Virus record (IMG/VR): IMGVR_UViG_3300042673_001309
Coordinates: 1 to 38,223 of that record
DNA length: 38,223 nt
Source: a virus
Strand: one strand, 5' to 3'
Shown here: piece by piece, positions 1,165-37,568 of the stretch
How the letters are laid out: each line of letters starts with the position of its first letter
Position numbering within the stretch: position 1 is the first letter of the stretch
Program-made: the position numbers and the translations under genes
Notes under the pieces: generated by a model
Database searches by the model: none
What the model was told of the DNA's origin: nothing
Seen by the model: the letters and a program-made list of their open reading frames with translations, nothing else

Positions 1165-1628
1165 CGCCTCACCTGAGCCGCTGCCAAATCCGCTAGAACT
1201 TGGTCCCGCGTCGCGTAGTGCTCCTCGCGGGTAATCTTGCCAATCTTGCATTGTTCGCCCGATTCAAGAACCCTGGCGATGTACGGCCGTAGCGAAACAT
1301 GGCTGTAGTTGCCCCTGGGTTCTTCTCGGTCTCGAATCATATCAACCAGTTGAGTTTTGCGAGCGTTGACGCGATCCTGCAAGACAACCGCTCGGAGGTG
1401 CAAAGCGAAATCGCCAAGTTCGTAGTATTGGGGCCTTGGTAGTTCGTCCTTGCTCCATCGATAGACAACGGAGATAGCCTCTTGCGTTGTAATGTCCTGA
1501 AGCGTCATTGCCCAAGCGTCGATCGTGCCGAGTACGCTGCTGGTCTCTTTGTTCAGGTAGGTGCCAAGGCTCGGAAAATGGATCATGGCGATTCTGGTAA
1601 AGAATTCTCGATTTTCAGATACTTCCAT
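1161..1628 (-). CDS. helicase-loader-like protein (G39P/P-type), putative
   Basis: This 155-residue helical protein begins ENREFFTRIAMIHFPSLGTY and continues with TIDAWAMTLQDITTQEAISV, VYRW. The spacing of aromatic residues and the W..L.....EA.S...RW pattern resembles phage helicase loaders of the SPP1 G39P type, small proteins that bring the host DnaB-type helicase to the origin. The match is to pattern and position only. It lies immediately downstream of, and overlaps by 14 bases, the initiator gene that carries iterons, the same order as lambda O then P. No helicase is encoded in the window, which fits a loader that recruits the host enzyme. It could also be a primosome protein of another family. 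Confidence 0.5.
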   Translation of the reverse strand: MEVSENREFFTRIAMIHFPSLGTYLNKETSSVLGTIDAWAMTLQDITTQEAISVVYRWSKDELPRPQYYELGDFALHLRAVVLQDRVNARKTQLVDMIRDREEPRGNYSHVSLRPYIARVLESGEQCKIGKITREEHYATRDQVLADLAAAQVRR

Positions 1629-2382
1629 TGTTCATGTCCTCGATGAGTTTAAGTGTCTTTTCTGCGTTGGTTAGCTTTCTGCCGGACTGGGTTCCTGCTG
1701 CTGGCCCGCCGACCGGCTTTAGCAAGCCTTGCCCGCCGTCATCGTGGCAAATGTTCTTCGCGCCGATCCTGATCGAAAACTCGATATCCTTTAGGGCCTT
1801 GGCTTCACCCCGTCGGAGTAGGTCCATAATCACCGCGTCGGCTTGAGCCTCTGGCATCCACTGCCCATCCTTGGCGAATCGGAAGTCCAACCATCTGACC
1901 CAATCCTTTTTTAGCCATTCGGGCAGGGTGTCTATATTTGAATACTCTTCTCTTCTCTTCTCTTCTCTAGGTAACGCACTGCTAACGCTGGAGGTAACGC
2001 TAGTAGCGTTACTTTTTGCCTTGTGCGTTGCTACCCTTTTTGCGGTCATTGCCCGTGTTTTTGCTGTTTTTCCGTTGTGCCGGTCGAAGTTTGGCAGGGT
2101 CAAGCTCTGCCCATCGTCGGACATCCACCCCGAAAGAATCATCGAGTCGCAAAAGCCGCTAACGCCAACTCTACGATCTAGTAACGCCTTGGTAACGCTG
2201 GAGGTAACGCTAGCACCGTTACCAACTGCGTTACCTTCCTGGGTCTGTTGATCGAACCACGCCCACACCCGAAGGAGCTTTCCGACCACTGCATCGGCAT
2301 CAATCCCGAGGGACTGAGCCATAGCCCAAACCTCCGGCTTATCGCTTGTCGCGGTCTCGAATTTAATCCAATCACCGGCCAT
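1615..2382 (-). CDS. replication initiator (O-like) with internal origin
   Basis: This 255-residue protein has an N-terminal domain (about 1-110) of the winged-helix type seen in phage replication proteins: GDWIKFETATSDKPEVWAMA, then VVGKLLRVWAWFD, a loop, then ILSGWMSDDGQSLTLPNFDR. A basic linker (TAKTRAMTAKRVATHKAK) and a C-terminal helical part (EWLKKDWVRWLDFR, ADAVIMDLLRRGEAKALKDI) follow. The linker regions contain two copies of the peptide SVTSSV (residues 58-63 and 128-133), encoded by iteron clusters 210 bases apart, so the gene very likely contains the origin it acts on, as lambda O does. ATG at 2382 follows AAGGA by ten bases. Upstream lies a structured non-coding element. Loader-like and coiled-coil genes follow. 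Confidence 0.7.
   Translation of the reverse strand: MAGDWIKFETATSDKPEVWAMAQSLGIDADAVVGKLLRVWAWFDQQTQEGNAVGNGASVTSSVTKALLDRRVGVSGFCDSMILSGWMSDDGQSLTLPNFDRHNGKTAKTRAMTAKRVATHKAKSNATSVTSSVSSALPREEKRREEYSNIDTLPEWLKKDWVRWLDFRFAKDGQWMPEAQADAVIMDLLRRGEAKALKDIEFSIRIGAKNICHDDGGQGLLKPVGGPAAGTQSGRKLTNAEKTLKLIEDMNNGSI
1945..1968. repeat. tcttc tandem repeat (homopurine on minus strand)
   Basis: Four full copies and one partial copy of tcttc run from 1946 to 1968, giving a pure purine strand on the coding side that encodes the charged peptide EEKRREE. It lies between iteron cluster A and an AT-rich stretch (1931-1944). A homopurine mirror-like tract beside iterons could help strand opening; that role is inference. 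Confidence 0.7.
1970..2013. repeat. iteron cluster A, inside the initiator gene
   Basis: Nine-base repeats of consensus ggtaacgct lie at 1970 (ggtaacgca), 1981 (gctaacgct) and 1993 (ggtaacgct), with an inverted copy at 2005-2013 (agcgttact). The start-to-start steps are 11, 12 and 12 bases, about one helical turn. Next to it at 1931-1968 lie an AT-rich stretch and about 4.6 tandem copies of tcttc, a candidate unwinding region. This layout repeats exactly 210 bases away. Confidence 0.75.
2158..2235. repeat. iteron cluster B, inside the initiator gene
   Basis: The repeats are gctaacgcc at 2158, agtaacgcc at 2180, ggtaacgct at 2191 and 2203, an inverted accgttacc at 2215-2223 and an inverted tgcgttacc at 2227-2235. 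The four central copies at 2180, 2191, 2203 and 2215 keep the same 11/12/12 spacing and orientation as cluster A, each shifted by exactly 210 bases (70 codons). Two arrays of phased initiator-binding sites within the initiator's own gene are a lambda-type origin design. Confidence 0.75.
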
Positions 2383-2415
2383 GATTTCGGCGTCCTTGCG
2401 TGAAAAAAGCCCCCC

Positions 2416-2498
2416 CGGTGCATAGGTTGACCGCCTTGGCGTAGATACGCCTAGAAATGCACCGAGGAGGATTGTGTGTTCGTCTGGCGGTCAAACCT
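2416..2498 (-). ncRNA. candidate pseudoknot element upstream of initiator
   Basis: Two long complementary pairs interlock. Bases 2416-2423 (cggtgcat) pair perfectly with 2457-2464 (atgcaccg). Bases 2424-2435 (aggttgaccgcc) pair with 2486-2498 (ggcggtcaaacct) over 12 pairs with one bulged A. A small hairpin, ggcgt/acgcc with loop agat (2438-2451), sits inside. The first strands of both stems are directly adjacent, so the fold is an H-type pseudoknot with an inserted hairpin, on either strand. On the minus-strand transcript it ends about 33 bases before the initiator ATG. It may be a regulatory leader, a structured RNA or a protein-binding DNA element. No known riboswitch or ribozyme family is recognised. 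Confidence 0.5.
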
Positions 2499-2539
2499 GA
2501 CGCAATCATTTTAGACATTGCTGAATCCTTGGGAGTAAG

Positions 2540-2844: not shown

Positions 2845-3210
2845 CTAGCGAATACCGCCGGGTATCAATTCGTCTGCTATCCTGTAAAGCTCGTTAAGTA
2901 AAACGCCGATAGCCGCCGCATCCTGAGCCGAACAAAAATGGATCATGCAATCATCCTGGATATCGAAATGCCAATTCGAGCATCCGTCCCATTTAATCGA
3001 GCCATGCAAAAAACGCTCAGCTTTTGACAATTCGTCGGTTGGGTCTGGCCTCGTTCCGCTCGGCAAATTCCATAGGGTGGTTGGTTCGCTCGAAAGTATC
3101 TCGAACACCTCGAAGTCGCAACAGTGCTCAAACGGCTTGCAAGCAATCGTAAAAACAGCCTCACCCCTAGCCGCAACTGTCCTCAGAATCTTTTCGTTTG
3201 CGTCGTTCAT
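2845..3210 (-). CDS. hypothetical protein, 121 aa
   Basis: I do not recognise this protein. It contains an acidic, aromatic middle (SIKWDGCSNWHFDIQDDCM) and a hydrophobic helix near the end (DAAAIGVLLNELYRIADELI), an arrangement seen in small cytoplasmic phage early proteins. The start is set at the ATG at 3210 because AAAGG lies at proper distance before it; an in-frame ATG at 3231 has no such site. The reading frame stays open far upstream without an ATG, through the structured region at 3240-3440, which I treat as non-coding. Confidence 0.6.
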   Translation of the reverse strand: MNDANEKILRTVAARGEAVFTIACKPFEHCCDFEVFEILSSEPTTLWNLPSGTRPDPTDELSKAERFLHGSIKWDGCSNWHFDIQDDCMIHFCSAQDAAAIGVLLNELYRIADELIPGGIR

Positions 3211-3239
3211 TATATGCCTTTCAAAAGCCATTGGAACAA

Positions 3240-3440
3240 AACTTAAAAGAGCCGCCCGCCCGTTAGAACGGACGGCCCTGGGGCAAACGACGGAAGTTTC
3301 AACGCCACTTGCCGACGGTCGTTTGGGCCGATTAAACCCGGCACGATCCGCGCACCAGTCCGTGAGGAAATTCCTCTTGGCGGGATTCTTGCTAGGTAGA
3401 TAGCAAGCACCTTTGCCGAGGTGGACCAGCCTCTTAGTTC
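3240..3440 (-). ncRNA. structured intergenic region, possible RNA with terminator-like end
   Basis: About 200 bases with no gene hold several inverted repeats. ccgcccgtt/aacggacgg (3250-3272, one mismatch) is followed in the transcript by a U-rich tail (CTCTTTTAAGTTTT). aaacgac (3285-3291) pairs with gtcgttt (3318-3324), enclosing aagt/actt. A self-complementary gaggaaattcctc lies near 3371-3383, and cttgcta/tagcaag near 3388-3407. The density of hairpins suggests a structured transcript ending in an intrinsic terminator. No known RNA family is recognised. The 14-base motif shared with 2831-2844 lies at its 3' end. Confidence 0.35.
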
Positions 3441-36898: not shown

Positions 36899-37404
36899 TA
36901 TTTTCCTGCCTTGTTCCTCAAATCCTCGATCCAAAACTGCGACGGGTCGAATACGTCAGCCGAGTACACCGCCACGCCAAGAGCCGCCCAATAGTGAGTC
37001 GCAACGCCGTAGAGCTTGCCCGGTTGTTTCTTGGTCCCAACCTTTCCGAAGCGATCGATAAGAGCCTGCCGGACGTTGGCATCTTTGGCCCGCATCGAAT
37101 TGCACAAGTGCATCTTAACTGATCGACGCGGGACAAGTCGAATTGACCAAGTGCGATCGTACAAAAGCGATGCGAACCAGCCGATACCTGCCACTGTGCG
37201 AAATGTCTCTTGGCCTACCGCCATCCCGAAACACTCGATCCATTCGATGGAAACAAAGTCGACGCCTTTGAGTAGCGGCCCGATCGTAAGCGAATCAATG
37301 CCAAACGCTGGAATCGATTCTAGCCGGATAACCTTCTCGGCTACTGAGTCCCACCACACAAACGCACTTTCAACCGGCCCTGGGTCGATGCCTAAATAGA
37401 TCAT
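36898..37404 (-). CDS. RuvC/RNase H-like nuclease, complete copy, 168 aa
   Basis: MIYLGIDPGPVESAFVWWDS has the first catalytic Asp7 in a 'GIDPG' strand; VDFVSIEWIECFGMAVGQET holds a second acidic residue near 54-58; MRAKDANVRQALIDRFGK, then WAALGVAVYSADVFDPSQFW, is the final acidic helix. This pattern is that of small phage RuvC-type resolvases. It would clear branched DNA before packaging. Its 5' 195 bases are near-identical to 1-195. It overlaps the upstream gene by four bases. Confidence 0.8.
   Translation of the reverse strand: MIYLGIDPGPVESAFVWWDSVAEKVIRLESIPAFGIDSLTIGPLLKGVDFVSIEWIECFGMAVGQETFRTVAGIGWFASLLYDRTWSIRLVPRRSVKMHLCNSMRAKDANVRQALIDRFGKVGTKKQPGKLYGVATHYWAALGVAVYSADVFDPSQFWIEDLRNKAGK
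37210..37404. repeat. end duplication, right copy
   Basis: This is the right-hand match to 1-195. If the contig is circular, the genome unit would be about 37.2 kb, with 37405-38223 being an alternative version of the genes at 196-1063. Confidence 0.9.
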
Positions 37405-37568
37405 TCGCCATCCTCCTTTCGTCGCTCGCGCAAAATCCTCATCGCTTCTGCATACCTAGAACCAAGAGCCTTGTCGTAGGTCTGCAACTTGATTCGTGAA
37501 AAATACTCGTTCGCCTTCCGGCCAGATACTGCACGCCGAAAGATTTTCCTTGCTTGCCTGATCTTCAT
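37401..37568 (-). CDS. small basic helical protein, 55 aa
   Basis: From the ATG at 37568 (ATGA overlap with the upstream stop), KIRQARKIFRRAVSGRKANE, YFSRIKLQTYDKALGSRYAE, AMRILRERRKEDGE: strongly basic and helical, so nucleic-acid binding is likely. It takes the place that the 91-residue gene has at the left end, directly upstream of the RuvC-like gene. A longer frame from 37700 would overlap the upstream gene. Confidence 0.6.
   Translation of the reverse strand: MKIRQARKIFRRAVSGRKANEYFSRIKLQTYDKALGSRYAEAMRILRERRKEDGE

Follow-up and report, generated by a model that had tools for sequence, protein, structure and literature searches.

A pseudoknotted leader RNA with exchangeable stems before operons of related uncultured phages

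Structured immunity leaders which precede the replication or antirepressor operon of a phage and show allelic variation include the CI RNA of P4 and the c4 RNA of P1 and P7. Transcription attenuators (trp-type, riboswitch terminators, pT181 repC) carry a terminator-like hairpin between the promoter and the first ribosome-binding site. The put RNA of phage HK022 is about 70 nt long and consists of two adjacent stem-loops which contact RNA polymerase by binding the beta-prime zinc-binding domain; it lies directly after the early promoters, in two copies per genome, putL and putR (PMC9378689). IsrK of Gifsy-1, a single prophage locus, is a leader RNA with a terminator and readthrough into the mRNA (PMC4825925). 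The STAXI motif, a pseudoknot in tandem repeats, occurs close to genes for DNA-handling proteins (PMC2864571). The pseudoknot described here is a real RNA element which recurs in front of operons of related uncultured phages.

The element in the window

The window is the whole stretch of viral DNA analysed, 38,223 nucleotides in length (IMG/VR record IMGVR_UViG_3300042673_001309, positions 1 to 38,223). It contains a 208-bp repeat of 93% identity at 1-208 and 37210-37417. The related records L117 and L137 continue from 37417 directly into the sequence after position 208, and the contig therefore looks circularly permuted with an end variant. A 399-bp stretch at 2845-3243 with a 128-aa ORF (phrog_33479) is absent from L117, a record of 99.4% identity.

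The element is flanked by a 94-aa gene and the replication initiator gene, among genes of the minus strand. Its position ahead of the initiator ATG (at 2382), described in a first-pass annotation of this DNA, was borne out. The features, in the sense of the minus strand, are:

2508-2513, minus strand: -10-like hexamer TAAAAT, with the predicted transcription start some 7 nt further on
2486-2498, minus strand: P2 5' strand, AGG-T-TTGACCGCC, with the core at 2486-2494 and the bulge at 2495
2471-2485, minus strand: A/C-rich single-stranded linker L1, AGACGAACACACAAT
2457-2470, minus strand: P1 5' strand, CCTCCTCGGTGCAT
2452-2456, minus strand: joint J1/3, TTCTA, containing the near-conserved TCT
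2438-2451, minus strand: P3 hairpin, GGCGT-ATCT-ACGCC
2424-2435, minus strand: P2 3' strand, GGCGGTCAA + CCT
2410-2423, minus strand: P1 3' strand, ATGCACCGGGGGGG
2403-2409, minus strand: U-tract CTTTTTT, terminator-like, adjoining P1
2393-2397, minus strand: Shine-Dalgarno-like AAGGA, outside the structure
1615-2382, minus strand: replication initiation protein (phrog_2509, E = 3.5e-59), first gene after the leader

The minus strand thus reads P2 5' strand, A/C-rich linker, P1 5' strand, TTCTA, P3 hairpin, P2 3' strand, P1 3' strand, CTTTTTT, AAGGA and ATG. Both long stems annotated earlier are present where they had been placed, CGGTGCAT (2416-2423) with ATGCACCG (2457-2464), and AGGTTGACCGCC (2424-2435) with GGCGGTCAAACCT (2486-2498) and its single bulge at 2495; the intervening hairpin was found at 2438-2451. 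On the minus strand P1 comprises 14 bp, G-U pairs included (2457-2470 with 2410-2423), instead of the 8 first reported, and P2 is a 9-bp core (2486-2494 with 2427-2435) followed by 3 bp past the bulge. The proposed pseudoknot is supported by the presence of these pairs and by compensatory changes in relatives. As had been claimed, such stems are not expected by chance: two crossing perfect helices, each of 8 bp or more, occurred in 4 of 20,000 shuffles of the 111-nt region. The fold z-score was -4.3 for the minus strand and -2.7 for the plus strand.

Several readings of the region were rejected. As a plus-strand HDV-like ribozyme (P1-P2-P3-P1'-P2') it would have a variable P1 of 13-16 bp, where about 7 bp and a conserved catalytic core on the strand that is transcribed would be expected, with the promoter-like site on the opposite strand and no Rfam match. 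A test for self-cleavage had been suggested; nothing pointed to a self-cleaving ribozyme, as Rfam gave no match and almost no nucleotides are fixed outside the short joints. The plus-strand heptamer AAAAAAG (2404-2410) followed by the pseudoknot resembles a -1 frameshift signal, but no plus-strand ORF crosses it, the nearby one ending at 2403. Translational sequestration was dismissed because the ribosome-binding site is in no stem. A coding reading was set aside, because the 48-aa ORF concerned, on the minus strand (2372-2518), starts upstream of the predicted transcript and is not conserved in most other alleles. This ORF overlaps the leader, has a good Shine-Dalgarno-like site, and its stop overlaps the initiator start; it is also open in the L083, L084 and L020 alleles, in which the distances from P1 to the ATG differ by multiples of three.

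No Rfam 15 family was matched at its gathering threshold or above by the window or nine relatives (ten sequences scanned), a permissive Rfam search of the window region returned a chance microRNA match only, and a limited full-text literature search found no description of the element. It is apparently a regulatory RNA not described before. It counts among the phage leader RNAs; new to us were the fold, the freely exchanged stems and the cassette-like movement.

Like P4 CI and c4 RNA, the element is a structured leader with allelic variation before a phage replication operon, but it has a different fold, no Rfam c4 match and no separate complementary target in the genomes tested (none of at least 11 nt in the window genome, at most 13 nt in five other records). 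It shares the terminator-like hairpin of the attenuators but lacks an antiterminator overlapping the P1 5' strand and a conserved leader peptide, and no consistent antisense promoter was found: inside the leader, pT181-type antisense matches were weak and inconsistent in position. One P1 of phage contig L176 ends AGCCC...GGGCTTTTT, which we take to resemble a trp-type terminator. With put RNA it has in common the structured RNA directly after the promoter and, in some phages, the two copies; it differs in having, instead of two adjacent stem-loops, a pseudoknot whose stems are exchangeable, and a U-tract. IsrK differs in structure. STAXI is likewise a pseudoknot near genes for DNA-handling proteins, but the window element is single and promoter-linked, and Rfam gave no match.

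Recurrence and exchange of stems

Related elements were sought with a structural descriptor consisting of P2 5' strand, A/C-rich linker, P1 5' strand, UCU-type joint, small hairpin, P2 3' strand, P1 3' strand and U-tract. Scans covering 0.5 to 1.6 Mb detected the same fold in 24 distinct sequences, and a protein search added 2 more in L212. The full descriptor had 0 matches on either strand of a shuffled control matched to the 1.58 Mb of loci. At least 13 stem alleles were distinguished, in which the stem sequences are largely unrelated and all stem pairs are kept.

The compensatory changes that were proposed as a check on the fold were found. In 13 alleles all P1 cells (186/186) and all P2 cells (140/140) are paired, a result which is partly by construction as the descriptor demands pairing, so that a fair test has to come from retrievals made without regard to structure. 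For strands combined across alleles, the paired fraction was 0.49 for P1 and 0.40 for P2. Mean stem identity over the 13 alleles was 0.35, and the majority of pair positions have at least three Watson-Crick types. MAFFT misplaced P1, and the pair counts were taken from a segment-wise alignment in Python instead.

Three retrievals were independent of structure. For a TcmP-like protein, nine of nine viral relatives carry the element immediately ahead of the gene, with five stem alleles. Contigs with the upstream 20-mer GAAAAGTACAATTTAGCGAA carry the element in 23 of 25 cases. The distant L172 and L175 were retrieved by the sequence of joint and P3 alone, and their P1 and P2 then pair fully. A gene of L172 (7092-8114) with cysteine-motif repeats looks planctomycetal, which hints at the phylum that hosts this distant phage. 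Upstream of initiator homologues, L003, L083 and L084 have near-identical copies, L020, L030 and L031 share the arrangement while their stems differ entirely, and others, among them L002 and L010, have no element.

Looser descriptors gave no further convincing element in the records covered. When TCT was no longer required, 18 additional record pieces yielded no element without it, and a second P3-based pattern yielded 0 new alleles. A relaxed descriptor allowing mismatches (852 kb) returned the same elements and two weak chance matches only, and recovered none from phages that seem to lack the element. In blastn searches of phage and plasmid records only one 26-nt chance match was obtained; a genome scan with the 20-mer gave one Flavobacterium match, which is without the element and was judged to be chance.

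Outside the short joints almost no nucleotides are fixed. TCT is present in nearly every joint before P3 (the second L212 element has CTTCGT instead), and the P3 loop mostly has four bases. Over the 13 alleles, A makes up 57% and C 27% of the L1 linker, outer P1 is biased in its bases (5' arm 69% C, 3' arm 71% G), and the first 7 nt after P1 are 67% T, declining past position 7 in most elements. The U-tract is short in many members (GTTTAG, CTTATC, and GTCTCA in L097), some having only three U's.

The genes behind the element encode several initiator types, a TcmP-like protein whose gene is followed by a DUF5131 gene, and HNH-, GIY-YIG- and helicase-like proteins; the HNH, GIY-YIG and helicase names are our reading of the sequences. 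The sensing of initiator level that had been suggested is thus unsupported as a general function, since TcmP-, HNH-, GIY-YIG- and helicase-like genes also head such operons. The TcmP-like and DUF5131 gene pair is itself conserved (L022, 457-2662; L176, 1748-3998), with a pseudoknot leader heading every relative found. L176 and L212 each carry two different alleles, and in one phage contig two alleles stand before two operons. At one locus the stems are swapped allelically (L030 versus L031), and between homologous loci the whole cassette is gained or lost: L011 has the element, L007, L009 and L018 a short spacer. The window is 99.8% identical to L137, but this identity breaks off at 2386, 4 nt upstream of the ATG of the initiator.

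Promoter, start codon and mode of action

In all 15 elements tested, P2 is preceded by a -10 hexamer whose end is 9-14 nt away; the control position has none. The -35 region is weak in the window, whereas both elements of L176 are preceded by TTGACG-N16/17-TATAAT, the two best promoter matches of 3.2 kb. P2 would begin at roughly +3 to +8 of the predicted transcript. The first start codon usually follows P1 by about 16-27 nt (the automatic start call picked an earlier alternative start in a few cases), and the ribosome-binding site is unpaired. In L030, L031, L089 and L093 the palindromes GGCATATGCC and GGCATTCC..GGAATGTC lie just upstream of the -10 hexamer and are possible repressor operators.

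The regulatory role proposed in the first-pass annotation is supported. The element is the 5' leader RNA of a phage operon, close to the promoter, and most likely a transcription attenuator, to which we assign a probability of roughly 0.5. The pairings with their compensatory changes, the placement of the element after promoter-like hexamers and ahead of a start codon, the U-tract and the gain or loss of the cassette are observed; we infer that P1 terminates, that P2 controls P1 and that the leader senses a factor of phage or host. RNA polymerase would start just upstream of P2; the P2 5' strand, the A/C-rich linker, the P1 5' strand and the P3 hairpin would emerge first, and the P2 3' strand would then close P2. 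The P1 3' strand, emerging last, would close P1 through the loop of P2 and complete the pseudoknot. P1 would act as an intrinsic terminator releasing a share of the transcripts ahead of the first gene, and P2 would gate or help this terminator, its state setting the amount of readthrough. P1 most likely has this role because its G/C-rich base runs into the U-tract and it is positioned just before the ribosome-binding site. P2 and P3 shorten the loop of about 30-40 nt which P1 must close, and the state of P2 would therefore set readthrough.

A G/C-rich hairpin followed by a U-tract does lie between the promoter-like site and the first gene, as an attenuator should have it, with U-tracts short in several members. 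The P1 loop, at about 30-40 nt, is long for a terminator. No alternative antiterminator sequestering the P1 5' strand was found; P2 does not overlap P1 and is compatible with it rather than exclusive. The main weakness of the attenuator reading is the short U-tracts, some of only three U's, at which termination might be weak or absent.

Put-like antitermination, in which the folded leader binds its own RNA polymerase and makes it ignore the downstream pauses and terminators of the early operon, is a tentative alternative of low probability. The element is placed as putL is, directly after an early promoter, two copies serve two operons of one phage as putL and putR do, and the near-conserved UCU joint and A-rich strand could contact polymerase or form a triplex. 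Put, however, has two stem-loops, and a pseudoknot is not mentioned in PMC9378689; the stem sequences are freely exchanged here, and a U-tract adjoining P1 would be odd for an antiterminator.

Similarly doubtful is a role in mRNA protection or translation, in which the 5'-terminal pseudoknot would block 5'-end-dependent decay or keep the ribosome-binding site open. The start of P2 close to the predicted 5' end, the retention of stability while stem sequence is free, and the unpaired ribosome-binding site would fit, but a plain hairpin would suffice, and such a role explains neither the U-tract nor the base bias of P1 nor the near-conservation of the joint.

A stand-alone sRNA of about 105 nt that has a promoter and a terminator to itself and acts in trans (its target could be the host or a rival phage, or it could confer allele-specific immunity) is distinctly unlikely. 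Promoter-like hexamers, compact fold and U-tract do resemble sRNA genes, the L030/L031 stem swap is allelic, and IsrK sets a prophage precedent as a terminated sRNA that doubles as mRNA leader (PMC4825925); yet a free sRNA gene does not need the near-constant 16-27 nt to the start codon, and outside the element complementary targets are missing at the lengths given above. More speculative still, and improbable, is a mobile promoter and leader cassette whose interchangeable stem alleles serve as specificity tags, the leader RNA of one allele excluding an incoming phage of the same allele. If this were true, the terminated leader RNA would promote termination on the same-allele phage, an RNA-based immunity of new design.

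A DNA-level site near the origin, whether the self-folding strand suggested in the first-pass annotation or initiator-binding inverted repeats, is very improbable although the element adjoins the initiator gene in the window: it is found in a single orientation, on the coding strand each time, with a promoter-like site just upstream and a ribosome-binding site downstream, which argues for an RNA leader, it also precedes non-initiator genes, its stems are not conserved as binding sites would be, and a more origin-like repeat cluster is found inside the initiator gene. In that gene, 8 of the window's 18 GTAACG hexamers occur within 264 bp (1966-2234) in an iteron-like arrangement, a candidate replication origin.

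The element represents a structured RNA family unmatched in Rfam, is supported by stem replacement instead of sequence conservation, and heads replication and DNA-modification operons in phages whose close isolates are absent from the collection searched. Its free stem sequence and fixed topology provide a clean natural test of the effect of a pseudoknot beside a U-tract on termination or polymerase behaviour, and the element offers a handle on early-gene timing in these phages.
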